Shown here: one piece after another, positions 14,401 to 49,466 of the stretch
Position numbering within the stretch: the first letter of the stretch is position 1
How the letters are laid out: each line of letters opens with the position of its first letter
Assembly (NCBI GenBank): GCA_937981955.1
Contig: CALJNA010000111.1
Coordinates: forward strand, 1-56,405
DNA from: an uncultured Granulosicoccaceae bacterium
Lineage (GTDB): Bacteria > Pseudomonadota > Gammaproteobacteria > Granulosicoccales > Granulosicoccaceae
Length of the DNA stretch: 56,405 nucleotides
Direction of reading: 5' to 3'
Program-made: the position numbers and the translations under genes
The notes under the pieces: model-generated
Seen by the model: the letters and a program-made list of their open reading frames with translations, nothing else
What the model was told of the DNA's origin: nothing
Database searches by the model: none

Positions 14401-14483
14401 ATGAACAGGGTTACAACGCGCAAGGTGTTCGTGTTGGCCTGCAAGTTAAGTTTGATGAGGATTGGTTTAAATGGCTGGAATAA
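8403..14483 (+). CDS. Giant DUF11/SdrD-B/Ig protein with C-terminal outer-membrane barrel
   Basis: A 2026-residue protein. The signal peptide is residues 1-23 (cleavage after TANA), and the mature N-terminus ATDAGTAIVN is shared with the 5260 and 15069 products. DUF11-like modules fill the first part. A CNA-B-like module lies near 538-610, another DUF11 near 661-800, and an SdrD-B-like module near 815-885 (VFGKVYVDSSCDN, TDEDGQYSLYGLEPG). An acidic, Gln-rich linker of low complexity follows near 920-1030. An invasin-type Ig module is near 1145-1225 (DIVITDAHNNPAHGV). From about 1268 to the end, alternating amphipathic strands (LFLKGRVKNDMQLSLSYDS, YATYGDSSLRG, GLRYNAIGF) indicate a large transmembrane barrel, ending VRVGLQVKF plus ten residues. 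The next gene overlaps it by 13 bp. It may anchor or export the DUF11 proteins; this is untested. Confidence 0.9.
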   Translation: MPFWAKLIVVLSVMWLSVTTANAATDAGTAIVNQATLTYTDTATGQLVELKSNTSTILVATLRQFELLSSNSIIATAGDSITLSHSLRNIGNVDDRYALSVENQIADSGDLINLMLYVDSNSNGVVDPGEPIVDSEITVEAGESISLVVTGILPTELLGNDEVEVLLFAEAVESDLPVQTNTDLITVKPSANIELQLLASPSCEVFSNTNDIVDFTLVATNQTQTLPVDRTLIVDGAEREGVLLEVDLPTGLTLVPGELLDIVAFQAIPVVSASTSGNEWMRYEHWDGTTLIDRLALVVPQDNFKEQDSVSFSFPMRINESSDNARYFISAGIDYELDGVVDDEAEPACVNVISLGSALASEIRFIEPSIELQKNAQTPEFDRDEDFIDAPVYRLQQSELNNGTNGGEYRLDLNGVYVELVASVPNEQLIIDASGAQYVVVTVASGLTGDTLQLLLRETDNNSNTYRSIKPVLLSPTLTGDGVFCPGGSNGALPMPANYTDDSDICPLRSEIDDTLRVSFVDIGTGVEVSDTAIVDPVSRVFDSTSLQGVPDVVVSILIDEQVQLHPVTSEPLIFTTDSEGRYTIPRLPGASNYSIQVQAPPSYVFPSTVEPGQFESFFVIPASYGAEGYSQSGDGEFVVVPDSSPPVIDIPLDPANRNALLVVEKTAESTSVDIGETLSYAIKLKNRSDGQLNNVAVIDYPAFGFRYMPGSATFNDESIADPQRLSLPASANEGSDQSNNTVNGLRFQLSQVEANSEGTLRYHMRATAGASDGSGVNRANANAETVSGLLLSTPTSMAKVDVQRSGVLSDQAIVFGKVYVDSSCDNIQNQGEWPIGGVRLYLQDGTFVITDEDGQYSLYGLEPGLHVIKLDTLTMPDGLILKPTDTRQAADPESRFIDLSAGDFHRADFASYCPQQNVDAVFAELKERNLTLRDTWLLNEASRFDPDAKAPRLDARKRADTDGDLSQGILGFSRDQQDNRSRLDSTTQENQQSVDNSGDEGTVLSARPLEKPQMGDPEELVKEITEAQAKEGTWLWPQEDLSWDGRFMAVIPAGVDPVLYVNDVPVARTQIGEQIINRRARAQLVAWYGVRLVPGLNQVSVKAKDAFGNERVLAEGEFRRPSAGVRLLLRTTQDTLEADGGVSKLPIDIVITDAHNNPAHGVYFVTLSSNGGAFVEEDLQRREPGMQVRVENGRGRVHLRSTELTGNVRVQARTGALDASLNIVQIAAARPLIAAGLIDIGGQWNRVNQGTDARPNLEEGFDDDARLALFLKGRVKNDMQLSLSYDSHKNKNTHVLRDLNPHKHYATYGDSSLRGVEAQSRSKLYFKLEKDKNSIMWGDYLTDNNADHDDLGRVQRTLTGVNGVLDNGQTRFQAFAAQESASRNSEEIRGNGTAMLYEITRAPIVVNSEVVELIVRDRDNPGLVLTSESLTRNIDYSIDFESGLLRFADAVPTVDSDLNPVYIRISYDLDNSSDEYWVSGLRLTHRLNPQLSIAASLTDDQNPISGYTIGSVSATAKLSLNTKLTASSAYQTHRQANTDADAQRIHVEHAWSGRRDYRTVMTWARASTRFDNPAAGISQGREEWRLEHRQPLGNTVKATVDASHSRSLSEENLNTSVGVNIEKTFSDWSVSAGARHVRSRDQAADLTFNTFLLGAEKRFTLRNGLRGSIGVDYEQDVKTSERHRLGLSSRLQLHEHVSIYARYELDRGLSFQSYSINENRNRLFTAGIESDILPSTKLYSEYRLRGNVGGNSMETASGIRGRYEIKPKLVVSPAFEVIDVMRGSNADDSIALSLGVTDNRNPNRKISAQAEIRETSASRYYGFRGTVAQRLNVDWTGLLREEFTRQSPDIGELTSRHRMTIGFARRPKRSNEQHALFMANWKVDYGPQDGQDRKTWLLSTHQNRQIASNANLSGRVGLRRTDIEFDSGVVSSHAFMADIRGTFDIRRRWELDLRGGFLGTGGPGDGRYSLGFGLSWIVERNVRLGLRYNAIGFREDDLDEQGYNAQGVRVGLQVKFDEDWFKWLE

Positions 14484-15040
14484 CAAAAAGCCTGAAGATG
14501 TATTTGGTTTCAGGATTGATTATGTCCGCATGTGCCTCTGGCTGTGTCAGTACCGAAGCGCTCTATGCAGAGTACGATGCGGCCGATTGCAGATTGATCG
14601 CCAGCACCGATGATGCCGGTGCTATCAACTTGCATGAGCAGATAACCGATACCCACTATCCATGGGAGCCAGCGGTGTACTTCGCCTTTGACAGTAGTGA
14701 TCTTGCAACAGAAGAAAATGCGCGTCTGGATAAATCATTACAGGTTTTGAAAAAGTTTCCTTCACTGGTGGTAGGTCTGCAAGGCTTCACCGACAGGAAG
14801 GGTAGCCTTGGCTATAACGAAGCTTTAGCCGAAGCTCGCGTGCTGGCAGTGAAGTCGTACATCGAAAGTCAGGGTATTACTAGCGAGCGGATCATACTGC
14901 AACCCATTGGCGAGGTTCTGCCCCAGATAGATTCTGAAGATGATGTGGCTCGAGCAGTGAATCGTCGCGTTGAACTTATGCTGCTGGATAAGTCGGGTCG
15001 ACCTCTGGCCATTGAATACGCCATGAATCAGCCTGAGTAG
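14471..15040 (+). CDS. OmpA-family peptidoglycan-binding lipoprotein
   Basis: A 189-residue protein with a lipoprotein-type N-terminus: a hydrophobic MYLVSGLIM segment, then Cys21 and Cys25, either of which could be the lipidated residue. An OmpA C-terminal domain runs from about 75 to 175: YFAFDSSDL, GFTDRKGS, the ALAEARVLAVKSYI helix with the diaminopimelate-binding Arg, and NRRVEL. There is no barrel, so it resembles Pal-type lipoproteins. It overlaps the giant barrel gene by 13 bp, which suggests translational coupling and a shared complex in which it ties the barrel protein to peptidoglycan. The start at 14471 has GAGGATTGG upstream; an ATG at 14498 would still leave a lipoprotein signal. 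Confidence 0.88.
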   Translation: MAGITKSLKMYLVSGLIMSACASGCVSTEALYAEYDAADCRLIASTDDAGAINLHEQITDTHYPWEPAVYFAFDSSDLATEENARLDKSLQVLKKFPSLVVGLQGFTDRKGSLGYNEALAEARVLAVKSYIESQGITSERIILQPIGEVLPQIDSEDDVARAVNRRVELMLLDKSGRPLAIEYAMNQPE

Positions 15041-17717: not shown

Positions 17718-18833
17718 ATGAAAAGATTGGGAATAGCCATAATCGCCATTGTACTTGGCACACCAATATCGGGATACAGTGCAGGTTTGCCCTGGTATGC
17801 CGGTGCTGACGCCGGCGTATCTTCTTTGCGGCCGGAAACCGAAAACTCACCCTTTACTCTGGATTCTGGTGTGTCTTTTGGCGCTGGCGCTTTTGTCGGT
17901 TACGACCTGAGTAAACGATTCAGTCTTGAACTTGGTTACAACTATCTGGGTGCTGCGACTTTGTCTGGCAACGCAGGCAAAACAGATATTGGGTACTCGG
18001 CATTGTCTGCTGGTGCTTTGCTTTACCTGTATGGAAACCCCAGTGACGTTGAAGAACGTAATGGTTTTGCCGGTTATCTTCGTTTTGGTTTAAGTGTCAT
18101 GGATAACAGCGCATCGATTCCGCTAGAGCGTGAAGACAATGTGGCGTTACTCGCTGGAGTTGGTGTTGAGTGGCCGTTTTCGCGACAACTGAGCCTGCGC
18201 GCAGAATTAACCAGTTTTGACGGTGATGCTCAGAGCGCAAGAGCCGCAGTGATCTATCGACCTCGGTCGGATTATCGTGGCACAACGGTAGCTCGCGCTC
18301 CTCAAGCACCTCGCGCTCCTGAAGTACGACCACAACCCAAACCGCAACAGTCAGCACCTGAATCCACCCCGGCGATAACGACTCGACCGGCAACACCAGC
18401 ACCTCCGGCAGCGCCAACGCAAAGAGCAACTGCACCAAGCAGCTGTATTGGTCCGGTTGCAGGTGAGCCGTCTGATTCACGGGGCTGTGCTTTGTTTAGT
18501 GGCAAACTCAGAGGAGTTGAATTCAACAGTGGAACAGCCACGCTAACACCGGTTGCAATGCAAGTGCTTGATAGACTTGCTCAGAATCTGCAGCGCTATC
18601 CGTCTATCGCTATTGAGATTCAAGCACACACAGAATCGTTTGGCAGTGAAGCTCGCGCCAGAGAAATTGCCCGCCAGCGCACTCTGTCGGTGGCTCGACA
18701 CCTTGCAGGCCGTGGTGTATCGGTTCAACGGATGAAGGCGCGCGCGTTTGGTCATTCACAACCGGTTGCCGAGGACACTACCATCGCCGGGCGACGACAA
18801 AATAATCGCATAGAACTCCGGGTCATCCGCTAG
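17718..18833 (+). CDS. OmpA-family protein: small barrel, Pro-rich linker, OmpA domain
   Basis: The 371-residue product has a signal peptide (cleavage near GYSAG). Residues 25-180 form an eight-strand barrel of the OmpA type (WYAGADAGVSSLRP, SLELGYNYLG, GLSVMDNS, AVIYRP). A Pro/Ala linker follows at about 185-245. The GCALF motif precedes an OmpA C-terminal domain (FNSGTATLTPVA, HTESFGSE, RARE, RQNNRIELRVI). The usual peptidoglycan-contacting Asp after HT is Glu here, a conservative change; the following Arg is kept. It starts 3 bp after the DUF11 gene and is the simplest of four related barrel-OmpA proteins in the cluster. It probably links the outer membrane to the cell wall. Confidence 0.9.
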   Translation: MKRLGIAIIAIVLGTPISGYSAGLPWYAGADAGVSSLRPETENSPFTLDSGVSFGAGAFVGYDLSKRFSLELGYNYLGAATLSGNAGKTDIGYSALSAGALLYLYGNPSDVEERNGFAGYLRFGLSVMDNSASIPLEREDNVALLAGVGVEWPFSRQLSLRAELTSFDGDAQSARAAVIYRPRSDYRGTTVARAPQAPRAPEVRPQPKPQQSAPESTPAITTRPATPAPPAAPTQRATAPSSCIGPVAGEPSDSRGCALFSGKLRGVEFNSGTATLTPVAMQVLDRLAQNLQRYPSIAIEIQAHTESFGSEARAREIARQRTLSVARHLAGRGVSVQRMKARAFGHSQPVAEDTTIAGRRQNNRIELRVIR

Positions 18834-19022: not shown

Positions 19023-20864
19023 ATGACACGGACTATCACCAAAATGAGCCTGAGCCTGTCTACATTATTGCCCGGTTGCTTATACCGAAAAAAATACGCT
19101 TTGCCACTTGTGGTTATAGGTGTGTTGGGAGTATCCGGATGTTCTTCAATCAAGACACCCGGTGTCCTGAAAAAGGTCTCGATGCCTGACCTGAGCATTC
19201 CTGAAAATGATCCTTCGTTTCGAAAGCGAATGTACGTCGGTGCCTCGTTCGGGCAGTCAACATTAAAACCGGATACCGCTGGCACTGTGTTCACTGTGGC
19301 AAACGATTCTTCTACATCAACGCAATTCAGAATTGGTATTGATGTTCATAACAAACTATCGTTTGAGCTGGACACCTCAGTTTTGGGTTCTGCCGAATTT
19401 GCTCAGGGTAACACCGATGTCAGTTACACCTCCGCTGCTGTCAGTGCACTGGTTTATGGGTTGACCGGTGTTAAAAACCGTTCGCGCCGTGAAGGCTGGA
19501 GTGCCTATGGGCGATTGGGCTATGGCATTGTTCAACATGGTTCTATTGTTGAGCCGTTTGATTACAGTGACAACAGTGTGATGCTTGGACTGGGTGCAGA
19601 GTATGGTTTTAAAAACGGACTGGCTTTGCGTGCTGATGTGATACAAGTTGACAGCGAAGCAACGGTTCTCGGTTTTGGTGGTATATACCGGTTCGGTATG
19701 GCTCCAAAGCAAATTGGGCAGGTATTCGTGAACGCTGCCAAACCAGCTTTAGGCGCAGCAAATTCAAACGTTGGGCCTGATGGACGTTCCATGAGCGGTA
19801 CACAGCAAAACACTCGGCAACTTTCCGGTCGACACGGCAACTCCACAGTGACACCGAATACACTCGCTGCGCGGATGTGGAAGCCCAAGGCAAGCAAGTA
19901 CGATATTGATGGCGATGGTGTGGCTAATGCAAATGATGCGTGTGCATCAACACCGGCACGTACCACTGTTAATAACAGCGGGTGCGGCATGTTTGACGCG
20001 GTGCTCAGTGATGTGACGTTCAAACCCGGTTCTTCATGGCTAACGCCAAGAGCTCGAGGTGAGCTGGATGCATTGTCAGTGACGTTGCTGGCATTTCCTG
20101 AAGCCCGTGTTCAGGTGCGAGCACACACAGACAGTGAAGGGCCGGCAGATGTGAACCTTGGTTTGTCTGCTCGTCGCGCGGAATCTGTTGTTGCCTATCT
20201 ACAGGAGAAAGGTATTGGTGAATTGCAGCTCGAAACACTGGGCCTTGGAGAATCGCAGCCAATTGACACGAACGATACAGAAGAGGGTAGAAAACGGAAT
20301 CGCCGGGTAGAATTAATGACCTTGCCCAACATTGACGAGCAAGCCCTTATTGATAACGAAGCCATTATCGCGGCAGCCATTGTTACTGCCGAGCCTGCTT
20401 CGGCTGCACCTCAACTTGGTGCGGCCAAGCCAGTCATAACACCTCCTGCAGGTCCGATCTTTCCACCAATGGCGGGCGTGAAAATTGAGCCGCTACCCAA
20501 ACCCGGTTACGCTGCCGGTTCAAGTCTGGGCGGTATCTTGTCCGATGTGAAGTTCAAGGATGGAACCGCAACATTAACACCCGATGCCAAGCTGGCGCTG
20601 AAATCGGTTAGTAATGAGCTGTCGCAATTTCCGAAAGTTCGTCTGATTGTTATGGGGCACACAGATAACAAACTGGACGAAGAGAAAAGCCTGGAGCTAT
20701 CCGCCAAACGAGCGAACAGCGTTGTTAATCACCTGATTTCGCTGGGTGTCGATGCCAAACGACTTAACGCGGAGGGCTTTGGAGCCAATCTGCCTTTGGC
20801 TCAGAACCTGACCGAAGCCGATCGACGTCGTAATGAGCGCATTGAACTCAGAGTACTCGACTGA
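19023..20864 (+). CDS. Barrel lipoprotein with two OmpA domains
   Basis: The 613-residue product has a lipoprotein signal (LPLVVIGVLGVSGCSS, lipobox V-S-G-C near residue 40). A small barrel follows at about 70-225 (RMYVGASFGQSTLKPD, RREGWSAYGRLGYG, ALRADVIQVDSE). A single calcium-type repeat (DIDGDGVANANDAC) with the GCGMF motif leads into a first OmpA domain (about 325-440; HTDSEGPADVN, RRAESV, RKRNRRVEL). After an Ala/Pro linker comes a second OmpA domain (about 505-613; GHTDNKLDEEK, KRANSV, RRRNERIEL). Both keep the Asp and Arg expected for diaminopimelate binding. Two such domains in one chain is uncommon. The ATG at 19023 has no strong ribosome site; ATG 19044 is an alternative. Confidence 0.88.
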   Translation: MTRTITKMSLSLSTLLPGCLYRKKYALPLVVIGVLGVSGCSSIKTPGVLKKVSMPDLSIPENDPSFRKRMYVGASFGQSTLKPDTAGTVFTVANDSSTSTQFRIGIDVHNKLSFELDTSVLGSAEFAQGNTDVSYTSAAVSALVYGLTGVKNRSRREGWSAYGRLGYGIVQHGSIVEPFDYSDNSVMLGLGAEYGFKNGLALRADVIQVDSEATVLGFGGIYRFGMAPKQIGQVFVNAAKPALGAANSNVGPDGRSMSGTQQNTRQLSGRHGNSTVTPNTLAARMWKPKASKYDIDGDGVANANDACASTPARTTVNNSGCGMFDAVLSDVTFKPGSSWLTPRARGELDALSVTLLAFPEARVQVRAHTDSEGPADVNLGLSARRAESVVAYLQEKGIGELQLETLGLGESQPIDTNDTEEGRKRNRRVELMTLPNIDEQALIDNEAIIAAAIVTAEPASAAPQLGAAKPVITPPAGPIFPPMAGVKIEPLPKPGYAAGSSLGGILSDVKFKDGTATLTPDAKLALKSVSNELSQFPKVRLIVMGHTDNKLDEEKSLELSAKRANSVVNHLISLGVDAKRLNAEGFGANLPLAQNLTEADRRRNERIELRVLD

Positions 20865-21285: not shown

Positions 21286-24200
21286 ATGGTGATTAAAATA
21301 AAAACCCGACAAAATTCTCAACGATTTCGCCGATCAACTTTGTCAGCATTAATGCTGACAGTGTTGATGGCTCCGGCAGTTCCAGCCTTCGCGCAGGCCG
21401 GACCAGACAATGACGGTGACGGCATTGCCAATCAACAGGATCTGGATGATGACAACGACGGTATTCTCGATGTAAACGAAGGCCTCGTCGATGCAAATAA
21501 CGATGGTATTCCAGATGCCGGTTCAACCGACACAGATGGTGACGGTGTGCCTGACGTGCTTGATCTTGATAGTGATAACGACGGTGTGCTCGACAATCTG
21601 GAAACACGCGCTGATCGCAACGCGGTTAAGGCACTCGACCTGAATCCTAACGGTGCAATCGATATCAGTTTCGCCGTTGGAGCAAACGGTATTCCAGATG
21701 TCATCGAAACATCTCCTGATTCTGGCGTACTAATCTATGACGTGCTTGATTCAGACGGTGATGGTTCGCCTGATTTTCGCGACACCGACAGTGATAATGA
21801 CGGTATTTTTGATATCACTGAAGCCGGTGGTACAGATAACAATGCCGACGGTCGTATCGATTCGTTTTCAGATTCAGATGGTAAGGGTGTAGATGATGCG
21901 GTTCAGGCATCTGCATTACCTTTATTTGATACCGATGGCGACGGCTCGCTCGACTACCGCGATGCAGATTCTGATGCCGATGGTATCCCAGATGCAGTTG
22001 AATCTTTTGGATCAAGTTCTGCGAATCCAACCGATACCGACAACGACGGTGCGGCTGACTATCGCGAAAGTGACAGTGATGGTGATGGCGTAAGTGATGC
22101 TGTCGAAGCCGGACAAATTCCATCTCAACCAGCCGACACCAACGGTGATGGACGCCCCGATTTTCAGGACGCTGCTATTCAGAACACTGGTTCTGGTAAC
22201 GGTGGTGGAAACAATGGTGGAAGCAACAATGGAAGTAACGGCGGTAGCACCGGCATCAATCCTGATGGCCCTGATACCGATGGTGATGGCATCGCCAACC
22301 AGTTCGACCTTGATGATGATAACGATGGCATCCTGGACACAACCGAAGGTTTAATCGACGCGAACGGTGACGGTGTTGCTGATGGAAATTCACGCGACTC
22401 TGATGGTGACGGCGTACCTGATGGTTGGGATCTTGATTCTGACAATGATGGATTACTTGATAACCGCGAAGCACACCCTGACTTTGGTGTTGTCAGCTCG
22501 CTTGATCAAGTGGTTAACGGTGCAATTGACATAAGCTTTGCCGTTGGTTCAAACGGTATTCCTGATGCAATAGAAACATCACCCGATTCAGGTGTGCTGA
22601 ACTTCTCATTGCAAGACACCGATGGTGACGGTACTCCAGACTTCATGGACATCGACAGTGACGCTGATGGTATTACTGATCTTGTCGAAGCAGGTGGTAT
22701 TGACGCAGATAATAATGGTCGCATTGATAACTTTTTCGATGCCGATGCGAAAGGTGTGGACGATACTGTGCAAGCGAGCGCATTGCCTGTGTTCGACACT
22801 GATGGCGATGGCACAGCGGATTATCGTGACACCGATTCAGACAACGATTCACTTTCTGACAGTGCAGAGGCCGGGTCCAACCCGAACCGTCCGATCGACA
22901 CCGATGGTGATGGTGCGGCTGACTATCGCGAACTCGATAGCGATGGCGATGGTGTCAGTGATGCAGAAGAAGCTGGTGTTACAGGTGGTAACAACGGCGG
23001 CAACAACAACGGTGGAAACACTGGCGGTGGTAGCGGCATTAATCCTGATGGTCCGGACACTGATGCTGACGGTATAGCCAACCAGTTCGATCTTGATGAT
23101 GACAACGATGGTATCCCCGATACTGTTGAAGGTCTGATTGATGACAATGGTGATGGTGTTGCGGAAGATTATTCACGCGATACTGACGGTGACGGCGTTC
23201 CAGACGGTTGGGATCTCGATTCTGACAACGATGGATTGCTTGACAACCGTGAAGCACACCCAGACTTCAACTTCGTTAGCTCACTTGATCAAGTCGTGAA
23301 CGGCGCGATCGATATCGGTATTCCGGTTGGTAGTAATGGTCTGGCAAACATCATTGAAACCGGCATTGATAACGGTGAACTGAACTTTCAGATTCAGGAT
23401 ACCGATGGTGATGGTACTCCGGACTTCATGGACCTCGACAGCGACAACGACGGCATTCCTGATCTGGTTGAAGCTGGTGGTGTTGATGCTGATGGTAACG
23501 GCCGCATAGATAACTTTTTTGATGGCGATGACAAAGGCGTAGACGATACGGTTCAGTCAACTGGCTTGCCTGTGTTCGATACCGATGGTGATGGTGTTGC
23601 TGATTATCGTGATACCGATTCAGACTCCGATGCCATTCCTGACAGCGTTGAAGCAGGTTCAAACCCAAGTCAGCCGAGTGATACCGATGGTGATGGCGCT
23701 CCGGATTTTCGTGAGCAGGATTCCGATGCTGATGGTGTTCCCGATAGCCAGGAAATGGGTGCAGACCCTTCAAACCCGGTTGATACCAACGGCGACGGTA
23801 CCCCAGATTTTCAGGACAGCGGTGCGACAGACGGTCCTCCAGTCGCTGCACCGATCAGCAATGACGTTGACAGCGATGGCATACCGAACCAGATCGATCT
23901 GGATGATGACAATGACGGCCTGCTCGATTCAATTGAAGGTAAAGGCGACTCTGATAACGATTCCACTCTCGATCAGTACGACCTGGACAGCGATAACGAT
24001 GGTATTACCGATCTGGCCGAAGCGGCTGAGTTAGTTGATCTGGTGCGTTCACTCGATCTTGATAACGACGGCAGACTCGATTCTCCGGTTGGCGCGAACG
24101 GTTTTGCTGATGTTCTTGAGTCGACACCTGACTCAGGTACGTCTATCTTTACTGTAGCGGATAGTGATTGTGACGGTGTTCCTGACTTCAAGGACCTCGA

Positions 24201-26379
24201 TAGTGATAACGACAGCATCTACGATGCGTTGGAATCCGGTCGTGTCAGCACAGACTCGCGTGGTCGATTAACCAGCGCGTCCAGCAACACAGGTCTGGTC
24301 AGTGGTGCAAGTAACGCGTTATTCGACACCGATGCTGACGGCGTTGTTGATAGCCGCGATCTGGACAGCGATAACGACGGGCTTGCAGACCTTGTGGAAG
24401 CGCGTGGTATCGACAGCAATGGCGATGGTCGAATTGATCAATTTGACGATCTTAATGGCGATGGTGCCGATGATGGTCTACAAAGAACTAATGCGGTATT
24501 AATTGATACTGATGCAGACCGGACTCCTGACTTCCGTGATTTGGATAGTGACCAGGATAGCTTGTCTGATTTACTCGAGACCCAAGGCGCTGCTGCGGAT
24601 CTTGACAACAACGGTGTACTGGACAGTTTTATCGATGGTAACAATGATGGTCTCGACGACAACATGGCCTCGAACCCGGTACGTGAACGAGATACCGATC
24701 GGGATGGTATTCCTGATCAGGTAGATTTGGACAGTGATGGCGACGGGTTCAGTGATCTCGTTGAAGCTGGCGGGCTTGACATTGATAACGATGGCCGCGT
24801 CGATGTGCTCAATGACGCTGATAACGACGGCATTCCCGACATCGCGGACGCTTCAGTAACCGGCGGTGAAGACAGTGATCAAGACGGAATAGATGATATG
24901 TTCGACGCAAGTTTTCAAGGTGGTAACGATGCAGACGGTGATGGTATTGCCGATGAATTCGATCCGGATAGTGACGGTAATGGCTTTGTAGGACCATCCG
25001 CGGATGGCCAGGGTACGCCAATACAGTTACCGGATGCCAACGGCAACGGAACACCGGATATTCAGGAATCTGAAGCAATTGCAGTCGGTGTTGAAACCGG
25101 TTTGGGTGGAAGCGGGTTCGGTTGTTCGATCAGTCCAACCCCTCAAGGGCCAGCCAAGGGGCCTGACCCCATGCTGCTCTTGATGCTTTTTGCGTCATTG
25201 GCGTCGATATCCTGGCGCACTTTCAGGAGGGTCGCATCGCGACCCTCCCGAAACCCTAAAGGCCTGCGTAAAGCAGGCCTTGTTGTTGCGGCTATGTCTT
25301 CTTTGGCATTAAGTGGCTGCGGGATGCTCGGTTTTGGCGGTTCAAATAGTTCGGTTGACCATAAGGGCCGTGTTTATGTTGGCGCCGGCGCATTGGGCAG
25401 TATGCTTGAACCGAGTACAAAGAAAGACCCCAACATCAGCCGCGATGAAACGCAAAGCTTTGGCGGCACAGTGCAACTGGGCTACGACATCAGTAACCGT
25501 TTTTCTGTTGAAGGTCACGCATCCTCACTGGGTGAAGCAACGCTGAATCCTTCCGGCTCCATTGGTTATCAAGTCGGTGGAATCAGTGCACTGATGTACC
25601 TGCTTAACGATACCGAGAGTCGCGGTCGGCGTGAAGGGTTTAATGTCTACGGTCGACTTGGCGGTGGCACGATGCGTAACCAGGGTGACGGTGTTCGCTT
25701 TGAACGTGTCAATGATTATCACTTGCTGGCAGGTGCAGGCCTTGAATACGGATTTGAAAACGGATTAGGTGTTCGCGGTGAGTTTGTTGCGCACGAAACC
25801 GATGCCAAATATGCGCAATTAGGTCTTGTGTATCGCTTCGGTGATGCCGGTGGACGCCGTCCTTCGTCACGTGTAAGCGTGCCACAACCTGAAGCACCTA
25901 AAGTCTCCACAGCTCCGGTAACTCAGGAACCGGTTGTCAGCACACCGCTTGACAGTGATGCTGATGGTGTTGCTGATGCAACTGATGCCTGCCCGACAAC
26001 GGGTCCGGGTGTACCCGTCAACGCGTCTGGTTGTGCACTGTTTAACGGTGTCATCGAAGGAATCAATTTTGAGTCTGGTTCTGATCGATTGACAGCCGAA
26101 GCACAGCAGATACTGCAAGGTGTGGCTTCAACCCTGAATTCTTATCCGGAAATCAGAGTATCGGTCGAAGCACACACAGATAACCAGGGATCAGCAGAAA
26201 GCAATCTGCAGTTGTCGAAACGTCGTGCAATCGCTGTCGCACGCTACCTGGTCGAGCAAGGGGTGGATGGCCCAAGATTGCAACCACAGGCTTTCGGCGA
26301 ATCTCAACCACGTGAGACAAATGCAACGCCTGCTGGTCGCGCTCTGAATCGACGAGTTGAGTTTCAAGTTGTTCAGTAA
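21286..26379 (+). CDS. Calcium-repeat protein fused to barrel-OmpA lipoprotein
   Basis: A 1697-residue protein from ATG 21286 (TTG 21265 and GTG 21271 are alternatives; none has a strong ribosome site). The signal peptide ends near PAFAQ. Residues 40-1260 are thrombospondin-3-type DxDxDG repeats in four large units. A sorting-type segment follows: ETGLGGSGFGC (Cys1280), GPDP, the hydrophobic MLLLMLFASLASISW, and basic residues RTFRR. Then comes a lipoprotein signal (VVAAMSSLALSGC, Cys1345), an eight-strand barrel (RVYVGAGALG to LGLVYRFG), a short calcium repeat with GCALF, and an OmpA domain (HTDNQGSAES, KRRAIAV, LNRRVEF). The OmpA domain keeps its binding residues. Each half looks like a complete exported protein, so one chain may give two anchored products. 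There is no stop or frameshift at the junction. Confidence 0.88.
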   Translation: MVIKIKTRQNSQRFRRSTLSALMLTVLMAPAVPAFAQAGPDNDGDGIANQQDLDDDNDGILDVNEGLVDANNDGIPDAGSTDTDGDGVPDVLDLDSDNDGVLDNLETRADRNAVKALDLNPNGAIDISFAVGANGIPDVIETSPDSGVLIYDVLDSDGDGSPDFRDTDSDNDGIFDITEAGGTDNNADGRIDSFSDSDGKGVDDAVQASALPLFDTDGDGSLDYRDADSDADGIPDAVESFGSSSANPTDTDNDGAADYRESDSDGDGVSDAVEAGQIPSQPADTNGDGRPDFQDAAIQNTGSGNGGGNNGGSNNGSNGGSTGINPDGPDTDGDGIANQFDLDDDNDGILDTTEGLIDANGDGVADGNSRDSDGDGVPDGWDLDSDNDGLLDNREAHPDFGVVSSLDQVVNGAIDISFAVGSNGIPDAIETSPDSGVLNFSLQDTDGDGTPDFMDIDSDADGITDLVEAGGIDADNNGRIDNFFDADAKGVDDTVQASALPVFDTDGDGTADYRDTDSDNDSLSDSAEAGSNPNRPIDTDGDGAADYRELDSDGDGVSDAEEAGVTGGNNGGNNNGGNTGGGSGINPDGPDTDADGIANQFDLDDDNDGIPDTVEGLIDDNGDGVAEDYSRDTDGDGVPDGWDLDSDNDGLLDNREAHPDFNFVSSLDQVVNGAIDIGIPVGSNGLANIIETGIDNGELNFQIQDTDGDGTPDFMDLDSDNDGIPDLVEAGGVDADGNGRIDNFFDGDDKGVDDTVQSTGLPVFDTDGDGVADYRDTDSDSDAIPDSVEAGSNPSQPSDTDGDGAPDFREQDSDADGVPDSQEMGADPSNPVDTNGDGTPDFQDSGATDGPPVAAPISNDVDSDGIPNQIDLDDDNDGLLDSIEGKGDSDNDSTLDQYDLDSDNDGITDLAEAAELVDLVRSLDLDNDGRLDSPVGANGFADVLESTPDSGTSIFTVADSDCDGVPDFKDLDSDNDSIYDALESGRVSTDSRGRLTSASSNTGLVSGASNALFDTDADGVVDSRDLDSDNDGLADLVEARGIDSNGDGRIDQFDDLNGDGADDGLQRTNAVLIDTDADRTPDFRDLDSDQDSLSDLLETQGAAADLDNNGVLDSFIDGNNDGLDDNMASNPVRERDTDRDGIPDQVDLDSDGDGFSDLVEAGGLDIDNDGRVDVLNDADNDGIPDIADASVTGGEDSDQDGIDDMFDASFQGGNDADGDGIADEFDPDSDGNGFVGPSADGQGTPIQLPDANGNGTPDIQESEAIAVGVETGLGGSGFGCSISPTPQGPAKGPDPMLLLMLFASLASISWRTFRRVASRPSRNPKGLRKAGLVVAAMSSLALSGCGMLGFGGSNSSVDHKGRVYVGAGALGSMLEPSTKKDPNISRDETQSFGGTVQLGYDISNRFSVEGHASSLGEATLNPSGSIGYQVGGISALMYLLNDTESRGRREGFNVYGRLGGGTMRNQGDGVRFERVNDYHLLAGAGLEYGFENGLGVRGEFVAHETDAKYAQLGLVYRFGDAGGRRPSSRVSVPQPEAPKVSTAPVTQEPVVSTPLDSDADGVADATDACPTTGPGVPVNASGCALFNGVIEGINFESGSDRLTAEAQQILQGVASTLNSYPEIRVSVEAHTDNQGSAESNLQLSKRRAIAVARYLVEQGVDGPRLQPQAFGESQPRETNATPAGRALNRRVEFQVVQ
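21406..25060 (+). repeat. Four large tandem units of calcium repeats
   Basis: Equivalent codons (GI.NQ motif) occur at 21421, 22288, 23071 and 23878, giving periods of 867, 783 and 807 bp. Units 2 and 3 are closest to each other, and unit 4 is the most diverged. Gly/Asn-rich linkers ending INPDGPD precede units 2 and 3. Each unit carries many DxDxDG loops broken once by a conserved segment of the type NGIPDxIETxPDSGV. This looks like gene-internal duplication by recombination. Confidence 0.8.
25226..25248 (+). terminator. Perfect hairpin inside the reading frame (first of two)
   Basis: GGAGGGTCGC (25226-25235), loop ATC, GCGACCCTCC (25239-25248): a perfect 10-bp GC-rich stem in the coding sequence between the sorting signal and the lipoprotein signal. 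No T-run follows. Terminator is the nearest type; its function is unknown. Confidence 0.5.
25259..25281 (+). terminator. Perfect hairpin inside the reading frame (second of two)
   Basis: AAGGCCTGC (25259-25267), loop GTAAA, GCAGGCCTT (25273-25281), then GTTGTTG. This is the classic layout of an intrinsic terminator with an imperfect T-tract, yet it lies within the 21286 reading frame. It could attenuate expression of the OmpA half or be the remnant of a terminator once separating two genes. Confidence 0.5.
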
Positions 26380-26432
26380 AAACAGGCTGTTTTAATTCTT
26401 AACAATCGTTTAACGATACGTTAATGTGCAAA

Positions 26433-26466
26433 GGGTCTACCTAATCAATTTGGGTAGGCCCTTTTT
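26433..26466 (+). terminator. Rho-independent terminator
   Basis: GGGTCTACC (26433-26441) pairs with GGTAGGCCC (26453-26461) over nine pairs, one of them G-U, followed by TTTTT. It lies 54 bp after the 21286 gene stop and ends that transcript. It also shows that the next gene must start downstream of the in-frame ATG at 26426. Confidence 0.85.
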
Positions 26467-26578
26467 CGTTAACGCCAGCGCACTTTTCGCGCATATACAG
26501 AAAACTACCTATAGACAAGAACGATTTCTCCTTACTAGCCGTCAGATTCCTTGCCTGTTTTGTTGCATACTTCGAGGC

Positions 26579-29185
26579 ATGAGATGTGATTTCCAAGTTC
26601 GGATGAATGTAAGTCTGTTTGCTGTCTCGAGTTGGCGCTTGACGCCGTTAGCCTGCATTGCAACCGTCTGCTTACTAAGCGCCACAATGAGTTACGCGAA
26701 TGCGTCCCAGACTCCGGCGCATGCTGCGAAAACAGTTGCACTTCAGTTGCAACCGCGCGGCGGTACGGCGGGCGATTCTGATGGCGATTCCGTTCCCGAT
26801 ATAGCTGATCTTGACGATGACAACGACACCATTCCAGACGATGTGGAAGGCAATCAGGACACCGACGGCGATGGCATTATCGATTGCCTCGATCTCGATT
26901 CGGACAATGACGGACTATCTGATTTGTTTGAAGCAATAAACAACCCCGGCATACTTTCTTTAATTGATTCCAACGGCGATGGTCAAACCGACCCCACAGT
27001 TGCCGTGGGCAGCAACGGTCTTGCCGACCTTATAGAACAGGATTTCCCGGATTCAGGCGTTTCTCCTTACGGGTTATCAGATCTTGATGGCGATGGTGTA
27101 GTCGATCAGCGCGATCTTGATGTAGACAACGATGGAATTCCTGATGTAATCGAAGCCGGAAGCATCGATGATAATCGCGATGCACGCTACGATTTATTTC
27201 TCGATCTGGATGCTGATGGTTTTGCTGATCGCTTGTCCATTTCTCCGATCATTGCTCGCGATACCGACCAGGATGGCGTGGCCGATTTTCGCGATATCGA
27301 TTCAGACCAGGATGGTATAACGGACTTGCTTGAAACCACTGGAGTCGATACGGACAGCGATGGGCGAGTGGATGACTTCACCGATTTAAATGTCGATGGA
27401 TTACACGACACCTACATTAACGCTTTTGCAGGAATTCCCGATACTGATCAGGATGGTTTTCCGGATTATCGCGACACCGACAGCGATGGAGATGGTGTAA
27501 CCGATTCTGAAGAAGCTTTTAACAGCACTGTTGTACCGCAGCCGATCATTCCCAGTACGCCGTTCAACCCAAGACCTAACCAGTCTGCACAAGATGCCAA
27601 TATCACCCTGGAAACAGGCGAAAGTGGCAGTGTATTCGGCTGTGCAATATCAGATTCACGTCAACGTGGAACCGACCCAATGTTTATCCTGCTAGTTATG
27701 TTGTCATTGTTCGGGTTACTCAAACACGCTGTTGTCAAAGCGGGTGGAATAACACGTTTTTCAGTGCTTGCAATGGCGCTCTTGTTGTCTGCGTGTGTTT
27801 CACAACCGCGAAACCCGAATATTATTGCTGGTGGCGAAACACAATTCACGCCTTACGCCGGAATAGGTTTGGGTGGCAGTTTTCTTAACGCAAACACAGA
27901 CAACGTACCGTTGATACAAGACGAAAGCTTCAGTACTGCCGGGCAGATCACGCTTGGTACAACCATTAATCATCGTCTGGCGATAGAGCTCAGAGCTGCC
28001 GATCTTGGCGAAGCTACTTTTACTAATGGACGCGCCGTTGGCTATCAGGTTGCCGATGTATCCGGACTATTCAAACAACGCTTTGACAAGTTAACCGGAT
28101 TTGGCCGATTGGGCATGGGTGCGTTGTTTAACGACGGTGATATCCGTACCACGCAAAAAAATCAGATGCATCTGCTTGTTGGTCTTGGTGCCGACTATTC
28201 ACTAACACCTAGACTGGCGTTTCGTGCTGAATGGCAGGGCCACGATGCTGATGTCATGCACGCGCAATTAAGCCTGCTATACAGTTTTGGCACCCCGCCG
28301 GTCAGAAAGCCTGCCGTGTTTGCCAAGCGTGAAGGCGACACCGTTGTGGCAGAGGACCGTGAGGTAGCGGCAGCTGTCCCGGATAATACCAGCGAGCCTG
28401 AAACCAAATATATACCAATGCCTGAGTCAGCACCGCTGCCTCAAAGGCCATCGGCGACCGGCAGCATCGATAAGCCGGCCCCAGACGTCACGGTTGCTGC
28501 GGTAGAGCCTGCTGCAGTTGAGCCGCAGGAGCGTCAGTTGCCTCAGATAGCGGCCCGGCCCGACACGGAGCTGGCAATGGCTGAAACAGCTCCCAGAGCG
28601 CAGCCTTTACCCGAAATAACCTCATCTCCAAAACCATCTGAATCCCAGCGTCCTGAATCCGAGCGTCTAAGACCGCTGGTTACTGTCCCCACACCTGCGC
28701 CCGAGCCCGCTACAGAGCCCGAACCAGCGCCAGCACCCATCCAGAAAAAAAGTCCCGCCACGCCCGCTGATTCAGACGGGGACGGCATTGTTGATGCATC
28801 TGATAAGTGTCCCGGCACAGATGCCGGAACGATCGTATTGGCTGACGGATGCTCTCTGTTTGGTGAATCAGTACCCGGGTTATCGTTTGTGCCCAATACT
28901 GATGAGCTCACAGCTAGCGGCATCGAAGTGCTGGATACGGTCGCAGACGCGCTGAGCGATGAATCTGACATACGCGTAACCGTCGCAGCCCATACGGCTG
29001 CTGGCGAAGACGCAGATGCGGCCATGTTTCTCACTCGTCGACGAACAATCGCCATAATCCGCTATCTTTCTGATAAGGGAATTGATGCGACGCGGCTTCG
29101 TCCCGAAGCATTTGGCGACACACAGCCTCTGGCTGGTGCAACTGATTCAGGCGAAAACGACCGAGTCGTAATGACACTTCGCTAG
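26579..29185 (+). CDS. Calcium-repeat protein fused to barrel-OmpA lipoprotein (second copy)
   Basis: An 868-residue paralogue of the previous protein with one repeat unit instead of four. The signal peptide (LTPLACIATVCLLSATMSYA) precedes calcium repeats to about residue 320. The sorting-type segment has ETGESGSVFGC (Cys355), RGTDP, the hydrophobic MFILLVMLSLFGLL and basic residues. A lipoprotein signal follows (SVLAMALLLSACVS, Cys406), then a barrel (about 415-585), a long Pro/Glu linker, a DSDGDGIVDASDKC repeat and an OmpA-like domain. That domain is degenerate: HTD has become HTA, and the NRR segment near the end is missing, so peptidoglycan binding is doubtful. ATG 26579 is chosen because earlier in-frame ATGs lie in the terminator; ATG 26603 is also possible. 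Confidence 0.85.
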   Translation: MRCDFQVRMNVSLFAVSSWRLTPLACIATVCLLSATMSYANASQTPAHAAKTVALQLQPRGGTAGDSDGDSVPDIADLDDDNDTIPDDVEGNQDTDGDGIIDCLDLDSDNDGLSDLFEAINNPGILSLIDSNGDGQTDPTVAVGSNGLADLIEQDFPDSGVSPYGLSDLDGDGVVDQRDLDVDNDGIPDVIEAGSIDDNRDARYDLFLDLDADGFADRLSISPIIARDTDQDGVADFRDIDSDQDGITDLLETTGVDTDSDGRVDDFTDLNVDGLHDTYINAFAGIPDTDQDGFPDYRDTDSDGDGVTDSEEAFNSTVVPQPIIPSTPFNPRPNQSAQDANITLETGESGSVFGCAISDSRQRGTDPMFILLVMLSLFGLLKHAVVKAGGITRFSVLAMALLLSACVSQPRNPNIIAGGETQFTPYAGIGLGGSFLNANTDNVPLIQDESFSTAGQITLGTTINHRLAIELRAADLGEATFTNGRAVGYQVADVSGLFKQRFDKLTGFGRLGMGALFNDGDIRTTQKNQMHLLVGLGADYSLTPRLAFRAEWQGHDADVMHAQLSLLYSFGTPPVRKPAVFAKREGDTVVAEDREVAAAVPDNTSEPETKYIPMPESAPLPQRPSATGSIDKPAPDVTVAAVEPAAVEPQERQLPQIAARPDTELAMAETAPRAQPLPEITSSPKPSESQRPESERLRPLVTVPTPAPEPATEPEPAPAPIQKKSPATPADSDGDGIVDASDKCPGTDAGTIVLADGCSLFGESVPGLSFVPNTDELTASGIEVLDTVADALSDESDIRVTVAAHTAAGEDADAAMFLTRRRTIAIIRYLSDKGIDATRLRPEAFGDTQPLAGATDSGENDRVVMTLR
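27608..27796 (+). other. Internal sorting signal followed by lipoprotein signal
   Basis: In frame within the 26579 gene: ETGESGSVFGC, AISDS, RGTDP, a hydrophobic helix, Lys/His residues, then a second hydrophobic stretch ending LLSAC. It has the same order as at 25096-25320 but without hairpins in the DNA. Conservation of the arrangement in two diverged genes argues against a sequencing error or a recent chance fusion. Confidence 0.7.
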
Positions 29186-29348: not shown

Positions 29349-31226
29349 ATGTTTAAACTGAACCCCCTTGTTGCAGCCATCTCGCTAGCAATGGTCTTTC
29401 CAACGGTAGCGTTTGCAACTGATACCGGCGATGCGCTGGCAAGTTATGGCCTGGCCGAACATACCGTTGTGGCGAACGCACCTCAGATCGGTGAGATAGC
29501 ACCCGATGACAATGCACCAATTAACTCGGCCGACGCCCTGGGTGACGACAACGGCGCAACACCCGACGATGAAGACGGTGTGTTTGCATTCCCTGTGCTG
29601 GTTGAATTTGCCAAAGCCTACGACACCAACGTATTCGTTTCCAACCCGTCAGGACAAGACGCAACACTTGTTGGCTGGGTGGATTTTGATGGTAACGGCA
29701 CGTTCGAACCCGATGAAGCCGCCAGTGCGGTTGTACCAGCCGGTGCAGACAACCTGAAAATTAAACTGTTGTGGCCGAATACCGATGGGATTACTACTGG
29801 ATTCGTCGGACAAACTTACGCGCGTTTTCGTATCACCACCGACACCATTACCGCATCCGATGCGCTGGGTACTTTTTCCGATGGTGAAGTAGAAGACTAC
29901 ACGTTACCTATTTTGGCAGACAGTGATGGCGACGAAATTCCGGATTCACAAGATCTGGATAACGATAACGATGGTATTCCGGACACCGTTGAAGGCACGG
30001 GCATCGATACTGACAACGATGGCACACCAAATTATCTTGACGTCGATTCCGATGACGATTCCATTCCGGATTTTGCAGAAGCCGGTCCTGATGCAAATAA
30101 TCCGCAAGATACCGATGGCGACGGAACACCGAACTATCTTGATCTGGACTCTAACAACGATGGCACGCAAGACATTCTTGGTGACGCTGCCGATTCAGAT
30201 TCAGACGGTATTCTTGATTCAATAGAAGGTAACGCCGATTCCGATGGTGACGGCATTATCAACTCGATCGACATCGATTCGGATAACGATCTTATCCCGG
30301 ATTCTATTGAGCTTGGATTAACTGCACCAACACCGGTTGATACCGATGGCGATCTTATACCTGATTATCTTGATCTTGATAGTGATAACGATGGTATCCC
30401 TGATATGGTTGAAAGTAATTTGAATGTGGTTAACGTTCCAGAACTCGATACTGACACCAGTGGTGCTGCTGATTCAGGTTCAGTGTTTGGTGCGAATGGC
30501 TATGTTGATCTGGTAGAACGAGGCGCAGACTCTGGCGTACCGATTTTTGCCGTACCTGACAGCGACGGTGACGGTGTACGTGATTTTCGTGATCTTGACA
30601 GTGACAACGATGGTACCAACGATGTTATCGAATCAGGCGGTGTGGATGCTGACAATAACGGCCTTGTAGATGCGATAGTCGACGTTAATCAAAACGGTGT
30701 GCCTGATACCTATGACTTCACTCAAACCGGTGGCGTAGACACCGATGGTGATGGTATTGACGATACCGCAGACCTCGACTTTGTTAACGGCCCCGATGCC
30801 GACAACGATGGTCTAATCGACACCTTCGATCTTGATATCAACGGCGACGGTATTGTAGACGCTGTTGTCTCAGATCAGGCCAATGACTTGTATCGCTTGG
30901 GTGTGTTGCCCGATCTGGACGATGACAATATTGCCGATTTCGTTGATGACGATATCGTTGGTGGAGCGGTAACCAATCAGCCGCCTGCTACTACCACTGG
31001 TGGAGATACCGGTGGAAACACCGATGGAACAGGTACAGCTGGTAGTACGACAGCAGGTCAGGAACCAACAACCAATACTTCCGGTATTGTCGAGACAGGG
31101 CTTTCAGGGTCTGCGTGCTCGATCAGTGCCAGACCCGGCAACGATCCTCTGTTCCCGGGATTGTTAATGCTTGGCAGCCTGATGGTGTTGTACCGACGCA
31201 AACTTGGACGCGCCAGCAACAAGTAA
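29349..31226 (+). CDS. Exported GEVED and calcium-repeat protein with C-terminal sorting signal
   Basis: A 625-residue protein from ATG 29349, preceded by GAGGATAAAGG (in-frame ATGs at 29313 and 29331 are less well placed). The signal peptide ends near TVAFA. A GEVED domain covers about 55-180 (DDEDGVFAFP, GWVDFDGNGTFEPDE, FSDGEVEDYTLP). From about 185 to 540 there are thrombospondin-3-type repeats with the same NGYVDLVE and DSGV interruption as the two larger proteins. A Gly/Thr-rich linker leads to ETGLSGSAC (Cys590), PGNDP, a hydrophobic helix and YRRKLGR at the true C-terminus. It is therefore the stand-alone counterpart of the first halves of the 21286 and 26579 products. Probable surface anchoring via the Cys is inferred from the JDVT-/MYXO-CTERM families. 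Confidence 0.9.
   Translation: MFKLNPLVAAISLAMVFPTVAFATDTGDALASYGLAEHTVVANAPQIGEIAPDDNAPINSADALGDDNGATPDDEDGVFAFPVLVEFAKAYDTNVFVSNPSGQDATLVGWVDFDGNGTFEPDEAASAVVPAGADNLKIKLLWPNTDGITTGFVGQTYARFRITTDTITASDALGTFSDGEVEDYTLPILADSDGDEIPDSQDLDNDNDGIPDTVEGTGIDTDNDGTPNYLDVDSDDDSIPDFAEAGPDANNPQDTDGDGTPNYLDLDSNNDGTQDILGDAADSDSDGILDSIEGNADSDGDGIINSIDIDSDNDLIPDSIELGLTAPTPVDTDGDLIPDYLDLDSDNDGIPDMVESNLNVVNVPELDTDTSGAADSGSVFGANGYVDLVERGADSGVPIFAVPDSDGDGVRDFRDLDSDNDGTNDVIESGGVDADNNGLVDAIVDVNQNGVPDTYDFTQTGGVDTDGDGIDDTADLDFVNGPDADNDGLIDTFDLDINGDGIVDAVVSDQANDLYRLGVLPDLDDDNIADFVDDDIVGGAVTNQPPATTTGGDTGGNTDGTGTAGSTTAGQEPTTNTSGIVETGLSGSACSISARPGNDPLFPGLLMLGSLMVLYRRKLGRASNK
31090..31223 (+). other. C-terminal JDVT/MYXO-CTERM-like sorting signal
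   Basis: The last 45 or so residues of the 29349 product: ETGLSGSACSIS, a short polar spacer, NDP, a 15-residue hydrophobic segment and a basic tail (YRRKLGR). The order Cys, Asp-Pro, helix, Arg/Lys is the hallmark of tails cut by CPBP intramembrane proteases. No such protease is encoded in this window. Confidence 0.72.
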
Positions 31227-48399: not shown

Positions 48400-49466
48400 T
48401 CAGTTTAGAACCTCGCGCCGAACCATCGAAGCTTATGGGCTATGCGGCACCGGTTATAGCGTTGGTGGTGACCTTGTTGGCTGGGCTAGTTTTGTTTGCA
48501 CTACTCAAAGTGCCGGTTGGAGAGGCGTTCTATGCGTTTTTTATCGATCCAATCAGCAGTGTTTACGGCTTGTCAGAACTGGGTGTCAAAGCGGCGCCGT
48601 TAATCATGATTGCAGTGGCCTTATCCATTGGCTACCGCGCCAACGTATGGAACATTGGTGCTGAAGGTCAGTTAATTCTGGGTGGTATCTGTGGCGGCGC
48701 TGTTGCCTTGTACTTCTATGAAGTAGAAGGCTGGTTTGTACTTCCACTGATGATATTCGCCGGTATTCTTGGAGGCATGTTGTGGGCTGCAATACCTGCA
48801 TTGTTGAAAACCCGGTTTAACGCCAACGAGATATTAACCAGCTTAATGCTGACCTATATTGCGGCCCTGTTGCTTAGCATGCTGGTGCACGGTCCGCTTC
48901 GTGACCCGGATGGTTTTAATTTTCCGGAATCGCGTTTGTTTCATGCTGCTGCAACCCTGCCGATTATTCTGGAAGGTACGCGATTGCATATTGGTGCACT
49001 GGTTGCGCTGTTGCTGGTCGTTGTTGGCTGGGTGCTTTTATCTCGCACCCTGCTAGGGTTCGCATTAAAGGTTAACGGGCAAGCACCGCGAGCAGGTTTA
49101 TACGCAGGCTTTACGCAAAACCGATTAATCTGGTTTTCCTTATTGTTTTGTGGTGCTGCCGCTGGCTGCGCCGGTTTGTTTGAAGTGGCAGGTCCTATTG
49201 GTCAGTTGTTGCCGACCATTTCACCGGGCTATGGGTTCACGGCCATCATCGTTGCGTTTCTTGGTCGCTTGCATCCGGTGGGTATTGTGTTTGCCGGACT
49301 GGTCATGGCCTTGTCTTATCTTGGTGGTGAGTCTGCACAGATCAGTTTGAATTTGCCCGTCGCCGTTACCGGTGTGTTTCAGGGAATGCTGTTGTTCTTT
49401 CTACTGGCCGCAGATGTATTAATTAATTACCGCGTGGTGTGGCGTAGCAAGGCGGTGAAAGCATGA
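48396..49466 (+). CDS. BMP-type ABC importer, permease 1
   Basis: A 356-residue inner-membrane permease of the branched-chain/ribose-like superfamily. It has eight or more hydrophobic helices, with the cytoplasmic coupling motif region NVWNIGAEGQLILGGICGG and NANEILTSLMLTYIAALL, both typical of this nucleoside-importer subfamily. GISPGYGFTAIIVAFLGRLHP-like sequence (ISPGYGFTAIIVAFLG) lies near the end. It overlaps its neighbours by four bases on each side, so ATPase and permeases are translated as a unit. Confidence 0.93.
   Translation: MISLEPRAEPSKLMGYAAPVIALVVTLLAGLVLFALLKVPVGEAFYAFFIDPISSVYGLSELGVKAAPLIMIAVALSIGYRANVWNIGAEGQLILGGICGGAVALYFYEVEGWFVLPLMIFAGILGGMLWAAIPALLKTRFNANEILTSLMLTYIAALLLSMLVHGPLRDPDGFNFPESRLFHAAATLPIILEGTRLHIGALVALLLVVVGWVLLSRTLLGFALKVNGQAPRAGLYAGFTQNRLIWFSLLFCGAAAGCAGLFEVAGPIGQLLPTISPGYGFTAIIVAFLGRLHPVGIVFAGLVMALSYLGGESAQISLNLPVAVTGVFQGMLLFFLLAADVLINYRVVWRSKAVKA

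Follow-up and report, generated by a model that had tools for sequence, protein, structure and literature searches.

Internal sorting tags and signal peptides appear back to back in predicted envelope polyproteins of marine bacteria

INTRODUCTION

Sorting tags are known as the ends of proteins. The closest known system to the genes described here is that of TraA, TraB, and MrtX in Myxococcus xanthus. According to the published account of the sorting enzyme, MrtX cuts the MYXO-CTERM tag of TraA in cells, for which the Cys of the tag is needed, and the cut is proposed to lie on the distal side of the lipidated Cys and to be followed by export through the type II secretion system (T2SS); MrtX was also assayed in E. 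coli (PMC11980579). TraB is described as a barrel joined to an OmpA domain by a TSP3 linker and as being 1:1 with TraA (PMC12045341). Another protease, MrtJ, is described as a single gene beside one JDVT-CTERM gene (PMC11980579).

Here, we analyzed a 56,405-nucleotide stretch of DNA (the window; contig CALJNA010000111.1) from an uncultured Granulosicoccaceae bacterium. In the named genome collection, the relatives of its genome (25 loci) are likewise Granulosicoccaceae. Two of its genes each join a calcium-repeat protein and a barrel-OmpA protein in one frame. From the translated sequences and those of their relatives, we consider it probable that each fused gene encodes an exported polyprotein that is cut into two products.

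RESULTS

Two genes of the window each encode two probably exported halves in one frame

In each of the fused genes 1 and 2 (Table 1), a single frame begins with a signal peptide and aspartate-rich calcium repeats (TSP3-like in gene 1). These are followed by a JDVT-CTERM-type signal, a short basic loop, and a lipoprotein signal, and lastly by a barrel and then an OmpA domain; in gene 1, a DSDADGVADATD stretch separates the last two. Translation bore out to the residue the two signals of the original prediction, with the Cys of the first signal and that of the lipobox at positions 1280 and 1345 in gene 1 (65 residues apart) and at 355 and 406 in gene 2 (51 residues apart). The barrel and OmpA domain expected behind the second signal were likewise found by Pfam, the barrel of gene 1 just below the cut-off.

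The first signal had been read as a JDVT-type sorting tail, and the NCBIfam JDVT-CTERM model (NF033191, cut-off of 27 bits) agrees with this reading. In a whole-genome search, the model matched gene 1, gene 2, and the gene at 29349, all above the cut-off (Table 1). In whole-protein scans, gene 2 and the 29349 gene scored below it (24.1 bits for the latter), and for gene 1 JDVT-CTERM was not among the matches listed (25 of 42 families). Genes 1 and 2 both show the JDVT layout, i.e., a signature with an invariant Cys, a helix, and basic residues, and their matches are not C-terminal but lie 423 and 519 residues, respectively, before the stop. The 29349 gene has the same first signal as its true C terminus, as was also predicted; its translation runs through ETGLSGSACSI..DPLFPGLLMLGSLMVLYRRKLGRASNK to the stop codon.

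The order of barrel-OmpA gene, double-OmpA lipoprotein gene, and the place of gene 1 is kept in most of the fetched loci. Farther upstream in the window, positions 8403 to 14483 encode a protein of 2026 aa that has SdrD_B/DUF11-type repeats and, at its C-terminal end, a weak barrel match, and this gene overlaps an OmpA-domain gene at 14471 to 15040.

A strong intrinsic terminator occupies the interval between genes 1 and 2, although it was absent from the consensus-scan list. Because it adjoins the listed GTG start of gene 2 at 26426, that start is unlikely, and the ATG at 26579 or the one at 26603 is the likelier choice. With the terminator between them, the two genes are probably separate transcription units. 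A promoter scan of the region gave fewer matches than shuffled sequence did.

Table 1. Features of the fused genes and their neighbors in the window
Feature	Position	Strand	Evidence or remark
Stand-alone barrel-OmpA protein, same barrel family (conserved neighbor)	17718..18833	+	
Stand-alone lipoprotein, same barrel family, two OmpA domains (conserved neighbor)	19023..20864	+	
Fused gene 1	21286..26379	+	ATG 21286, 1697 aa; ORF translation, NCBIfam and Pfam scans
Gene 1 JDVT-type signature ETGLGGSGFGC, last residue Cys1280	25093..25125	+	JDVT-CTERM model, 32.7 bits in whole-genome search, 33.8 bits in junction-segment search
Gene 1 helix 1 (hydrophobic), after Asp-Pro, presumed stop-transfer	25162..25215	+	Junction reading
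Gene 1 basic loop, 18 residues, presumed cytosolic	25216..25269	+	No in-frame ATG, GTG, or TTG
Gene 1 hydrophobic stretch 2, ending in lipobox LSGC (Cys1345)	25270..25320	+	Translation, junction alignment
Gene 1 OmpA-type barrel	25369..25842	+	PF01389, 19.1 bits, just below cut-off of 21; aligns with gene 2 barrel
Gene 1 OmpA peptidoglycan-binding domain	26068..26352	+	PF00691, 83.7 bits (gathering cut-off 27.2)
Intrinsic terminator, gene 1/gene 2 interval	26430..26464	+	-23 kcal/mol, z -6.3, followed by T run
Fused gene 2	26579..29185	+	868 aa from ATG 26579; ATG 26603 also possible
Gene 2 JDVT-type signature ETGESGSVFGC, last residue Cys355	27611..27643	+	JDVT-CTERM model, 29.2 bits genome-wide, 22.9 bits whole-protein
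Gene 2 helix 1 (hydrophobic)	27668..27736	+	Junction reading
Gene 2 hydrophobic stretch 2, ending in lipobox LSAC (Cys406)	27746..27796	+	Translation, junction alignment
Gene 2 outer-membrane barrel	27776..28288	+	PF13505, 39.6 bits; PF01389, 24.6 bits
Gene 2 OmpA domain	28886..29158	+	PF00691, 50.2 bits (gathering cut-off 27.2)
GEVED domain, calcium repeats, true C-terminal JDVT-CTERM	29349..31226	+	Translation, Pfam, JDVT-CTERM model 28.2 bits

The junction is conserved in other fused frames

Thirty fused frames were collected from the fetched loci by the position of the barrel and not by the hairpin, and the junction pattern in them is not due to chance. First, the internal hydrophobic pair, whose conservation in homologues bears on the original prediction, was present in all 30 fused frames, compared to 23 of the 246 remaining frames with a length of 300 aa or more in these loci. 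When the pair had also to end in a lipobox, the numbers were 23 of 30 and 1 of 246, respectively. Second, the JDVT motif was found in 27 of the 30 frames, and each of these 27 segments matched the JDVT-CTERM model at an E value of ≤1; of the three frames lacking the regex motif, inspection by eye showed a divergent Cys motif in two and none in the third, which is from another family (L098). Third, an alignment of 19 junctions showed invariant T8, G9, G12, C17, D31, P32, and lipobox C82, with a linker or loop that varies in both sequence and length. The spacing from Cys to Cys was 50 to 73 residues in the 22 fused frames measured. Finally, in a search of five genomes with the JDVT model (E ≤0.01), 19 of the 28 matches were terminal and nine were internal, with three to nine matches per genome, and all nine internal matches run in frame into a signal and a barrel or OmpA region. 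A relative with a single-contig genome of 7.78 Mb (G023) has three such fused frames of 3569, 5309, and 5496 aa.

The one other frame with a hydrophobic pair ending in a lipobox-like Cys is in the window itself, at 49448 to 50392 (+).

The second signal is less uniform. In the seven fused frames without a lipobox, an AxA-like, signal-peptidase-I-like site closes helix 2 by eye. Thus, the expectation that the second Cys is cut by LspA fits both genes of the window, which have a lipobox, but is not general. A minor possibility is that only this second signal is processed, so that LspA or signal peptidase I frees the barrel part while the uncut helix pair retains the repeat part in the inner membrane or something else cuts it. 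Signal peptidases are general, so no dedicated enzyme would be needed, and either a lipobox (23 of 30, by rule) or an AxA-like end (7 of 30, by eye) is at hand in every frame. What argues against this is that neither the JDVT signature nor its Cys varies among the 19 aligned junctions and that, across families, the type of the first signal tracks MrtJ (see below), which is unexpected for an unused tag.

Since the assembly of the window is a draft of 177 contigs, estimated to be 76.7% complete, two genes might also have been joined by an assembly or sequencing error. This is refuted in practice, as the same join occurs in other genomes at 65 to 73% identity (junction-barrel alignment), in the single-contig 7.78-Mb genome, and in ten other families.

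The two halves occur as fused or as separate genes

Scoring the homologues as fused or split, as had been proposed, showed that both states occur and that the signals are kept in both. In eight relatives (L074, L080, L082, L083, and L087 to L090), the place of gene 1 is taken by two adjacent genes, one for each half and each with its own signal; the lipoprotein signal, internal in the fused genes, is N-terminal in the separate orthologues. All eight pairs overlap, five of them as ATGA, and the partners are in different frames, so a small indel would be enough to convert one state into the other. One more separate pair, located elsewhere (L091), has a gap of ∼20 bases. In four further genomes (G002, G021, G003, and G018), the double-OmpA gene is directly followed by the second half, and no gene with a tag lies upstream; in G003, a tagged gene lies downstream.

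The distribution of the two states in trees points to repeated changes. A quick tree, made without bootstrap from 94 rows of barrel-OmpA sequences (30 fused, 44 single, and 20 double), requires 11 changes of the fused label, at least six by its starred branches. Within the gene 1 clade (15 fused and 15 separate), five changes are required, and a single fused clade was rejected (p 0.034), the fused group for the test on the 34-row tree having been named after the first tree was seen. In that 34-row tree, the starred branches alone force one change, and the bootstrap trees need three to five.

Two other observations concern the separate pairs. In L087, L088, and L089, the downstream lipoprotein would have ∼40 residues ahead of its lipobox helix with a start at the ATGA overlap, an unusually long stretch that looks as if a former fusion had later been split. 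In the genome of the window, on contig C20 (L217:2665-6023), a gene with a Cys-less, GlyGly-like tail overlaps a barrel-OmpA gene, i.e., a separate pair with the other type of tail.

These data also bear on how the halves might be made and whether they are cut. It is very unlikely that they are produced separately, also or mainly, from internal starts in the junction. Two overlapping genes are indeed used at this place in the eight relatives, and ATG, GTG, or TTG codons occur in many junctions. However, a scan of the 30 fused frames between the end of helix 1 and the beginning of helix 2 found a Shine-Dalgarno-like site at just two start-like codons, one in L066 (TTG, site AGGA) and one in L067 (ATG within helix 1, site AGGAG). 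In gene 1 of the window, helix 1 contains a TTG and helix 2 an ATG; these are the only start-like codons there, and neither has such a site. Gene 2 has a GTG in helix 2.

It also seems improbable that the chain stays uncut as a large multidomain envelope protein, with the hairpin as an anchor, the repeats in the periplasm, and the OmpA domain reaching the cell wall. Very long fused frames, up to 5496 aa, do exist. However, the lipobox is kept in the fused genes as in the separate ones (in the gene 1 clade, all 15 fused rows and 14 of the 15 separate rows have it), and so is the hairpin. Moreover, an outer-membrane barrel could hardly leave an inner-membrane hairpin uncut.

MrtJ is common in the family and linked to a barrel-OmpA gene

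The original prediction called for a CPBP protease in the genome. Profile searches found neither MrtJ (NF033192) nor any PF02517 protein in the 76.7%-complete assembly of the window, which at face value is the refuting result named in that prediction. In the family at large, however, the expectation holds: of 35 other Granulosicoccaceae genomes, 32 have MrtJ over the cut-off, the three without it being 74 to 88% complete. The neighborhood of MrtJ was read at 30 loci, 28 of them in the family (this set leaves out G027, G028, G030, G034, and the extra matches of G014, G024, and G026), and all 30 MrtJ proteins have the EExxxR and HxxxN motifs. At 25 of the 28 family loci, a stand-alone barrel-OmpA gene of the same family ends less than 300 bases upstream on the same strand. 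Of the other three, one has a partial match farther off, one lies near a contig edge, and one has none. The two loci from outside the family (L031 and L035) have no barrel-OmpA gene upstream.

At all seven loci that were read whole (L211 to L215, L220, and L221), the order is hemB (porphobilinogen synthase), barrel-OmpA gene, and mrtJ; hemB was identified by its model in L211 and by likeness in the other six. In these seven loci, mrtJ is not beside a JDVT-CTERM gene, unlike in the published two-gene neighborhood. A search of the window's assembly with the protein of the relative G015, a porphobilinogen synthase over the model cut-off, found no hemB, in a search without a positive control of its own. 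Because hemB, the neighbor of mrtJ in relatives, is missing too, a gap in the assembly is the simpler reading of the absence of MrtJ, though this is not proof. A barrel gene at the edge of contig C64 was considered as the MrtJ-linked one and rejected, as it has 23 to 34% BLAST identity to those genes compared to 49% to another gene of its own genome.

Lgt and LspA are present in the genome of the window. No T2SS secretin scored over the cut-off in the window's assembly, which has weaker relatives only, and one was present in the other five of the six genomes searched.

Two types of junction occur beyond the family

A junction-barrel profile had matches in 32 of 274 gammaproteobacterial genomes, of which three are in the family. 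Outside the family, there were 22 frames longer than 700 aa, from 14 genomes of 10 families. By eye, 21 of them (all except L196) show the same arrangement, namely, a surface-type region and a tag-like helix with its basic residues, followed by another hydrophobic stretch and a barrel. The surface-type region has TSP3-like repeats in most, though not in G086 or G095, for example.

The first signal is of two types. A Cys-type signal was found in G110, G246, and G213, where it is fused, and in G136 and G215, where the parts are neighboring genes; all five genomes have MrtJ over the cut-off. With a Cys-less signal (14 genomes), MrtJ was over the cut-off in only one genome (G087) and below it in G116 and G166. 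This association between Cys and MrtJ (5 of 5 versus 1 of 14; Fisher p 0.0005) covers the fetched junctions only and related genomes, with no correction for kinship. Within one genus, the fused homologues of G110 and G237 align through the junction; G110 has both the Cys and MrtJ, and G237 (97% complete) has neither.

Rhombosortase was over the cut-off in 21 of 22 genomes and, being nearly universal, does not discriminate between the junction types. It may serve the Cys-less tags. However, of the seven Cys-less tails scanned, one (L167, a separate pair) passes the GlyGly-CTERM cut-off and two (L180 and L098) pass that of the MYXO-CTERM model TIGR03382, so the assignment of an enzyme to these tags is unsure.

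DISCUSSION

By analogy with the known systems, the following sequence of events is proposed. The N-terminal signal peptide would export the calcium-repeat part until the JDVT-type helix stops transfer, leaving a short basic loop in the cytosol. The second hydrophobic stretch would then act as an internal lipoprotein signal and restart export, this time of the barrel-OmpA part. At the first signal, MrtJ, modeled on MrtX, would cut just behind the JDVT Cys and leave the repeat protein lipid-anchored for subsequent transport to the surface. At the second, Lgt would modify the lipobox Cys, and a cut by LspA just ahead of this residue would then free the barrel-OmpA part as a TraB-like lipoprotein. 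The by-product would be a helix-loop-helix of ∼50 to 65 residues, and the two products, a cell-surface protein and a peptidoglycan-anchored outer-membrane partner, would arise 1:1. The sequences show the frame, the domains, the signals and their conservation, the alternation of fused and separate genes, and the gene linkage, whereas the topology, both cuts, lipidation, location, and partnership of the products are inferred from them. Cutting at an internal tag, unlike cutting at a terminal one, is a prediction here, and a point against it is that a helix held in a hairpin may be excluded from the protease.

More broadly, we lean somewhat toward the view that these genes represent a class of envelope polyproteins widespread in the Gammaproteobacteria, whose double cleavage cassette consists of a C-terminal sorting tag and a signal peptide set tail to head. 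Such a class would include at least two enzyme types (MrtJ for the Cys type and perhaps rhombosortase for the Cys-less type), two types of second signal (lipoprotein and signal peptidase I), swaps with overlapping gene pairs, 1:1 TraA-like and TraB-like partners, and frames of up to 5496 aa.

If tags also act internally, many large OmpA-domain proteins would really be two proteins, and searches restricted to C-terminal tags would overlook a third of those found here (9 of 28). The fused and separate states of one locus within a single family, together with a tag type that tracks the protease, make both MrtJ-type function and the partnership of tagged surface proteins with OmpA barrels directly testable, on the reasoning that gene fusion points to interaction. 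A complete genome has been published for an isolate of the genus Granulosicoccus, G. antarcticus IMCC3135 (PMC9238374). If the mechanism is true, it would supply a 1:1 surface complex from a single chain and be a little-known way to obtain two sorted proteins in equal amounts.

The original prediction knew of no described polyprotein of this type, and nothing relevant on bacterial polyproteins with internal or lipoprotein signals was found in the literature searched, on which the novelty rests; the arrangement itself, however, is widespread in genomes.

Four known systems can be compared. First, the reported features of TraA/TraB that are shared here are a Cys-tagged surface protein, an outer-membrane barrel protein whose OmpA domain follows a TSP3 linker, and a sorting enzyme of the CPBP family (PMC11980579, PMC12045341). 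TraA and TraB are also described as 1:1 and as encoded in one operon, which resembles the joint expression and 1:1 ratio predicted here. By analogy, each fused gene can be read as a single chain that unites a TraA-like with a TraB-like protein. TraA and TraB differ in being separate genes and in being served by MrtX, whereas here there are one frame and MrtJ. The comparison with TraA covers its tag, as distinct from its variable domain and Cys-rich stalk, and the NCBIfam TraB model gave 97.8 and 51.7 bits, mostly from the OmpA end, compared to a cut-off of 700. Second, the two-gene MrtJ/JDVT-CTERM system shares the same protease model and the same signal model, both over the cut-off; unlike the pair as described, there are several tags per genome here, 9 of 28 of them internal. 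Third, GlyGly-CTERM with rhombosortase is a possible counterpart of the Cys-less junctions, although its known tags are terminal. Finally, the cytochrome b/c1 precursor FbcH of Bradyrhizobium, which is reportedly split at an internal signal peptide, offers a likeness as a bacterial precursor divided in this manner; it differs in having no sorting tag at the junction and in that its products belong to the inner membrane.
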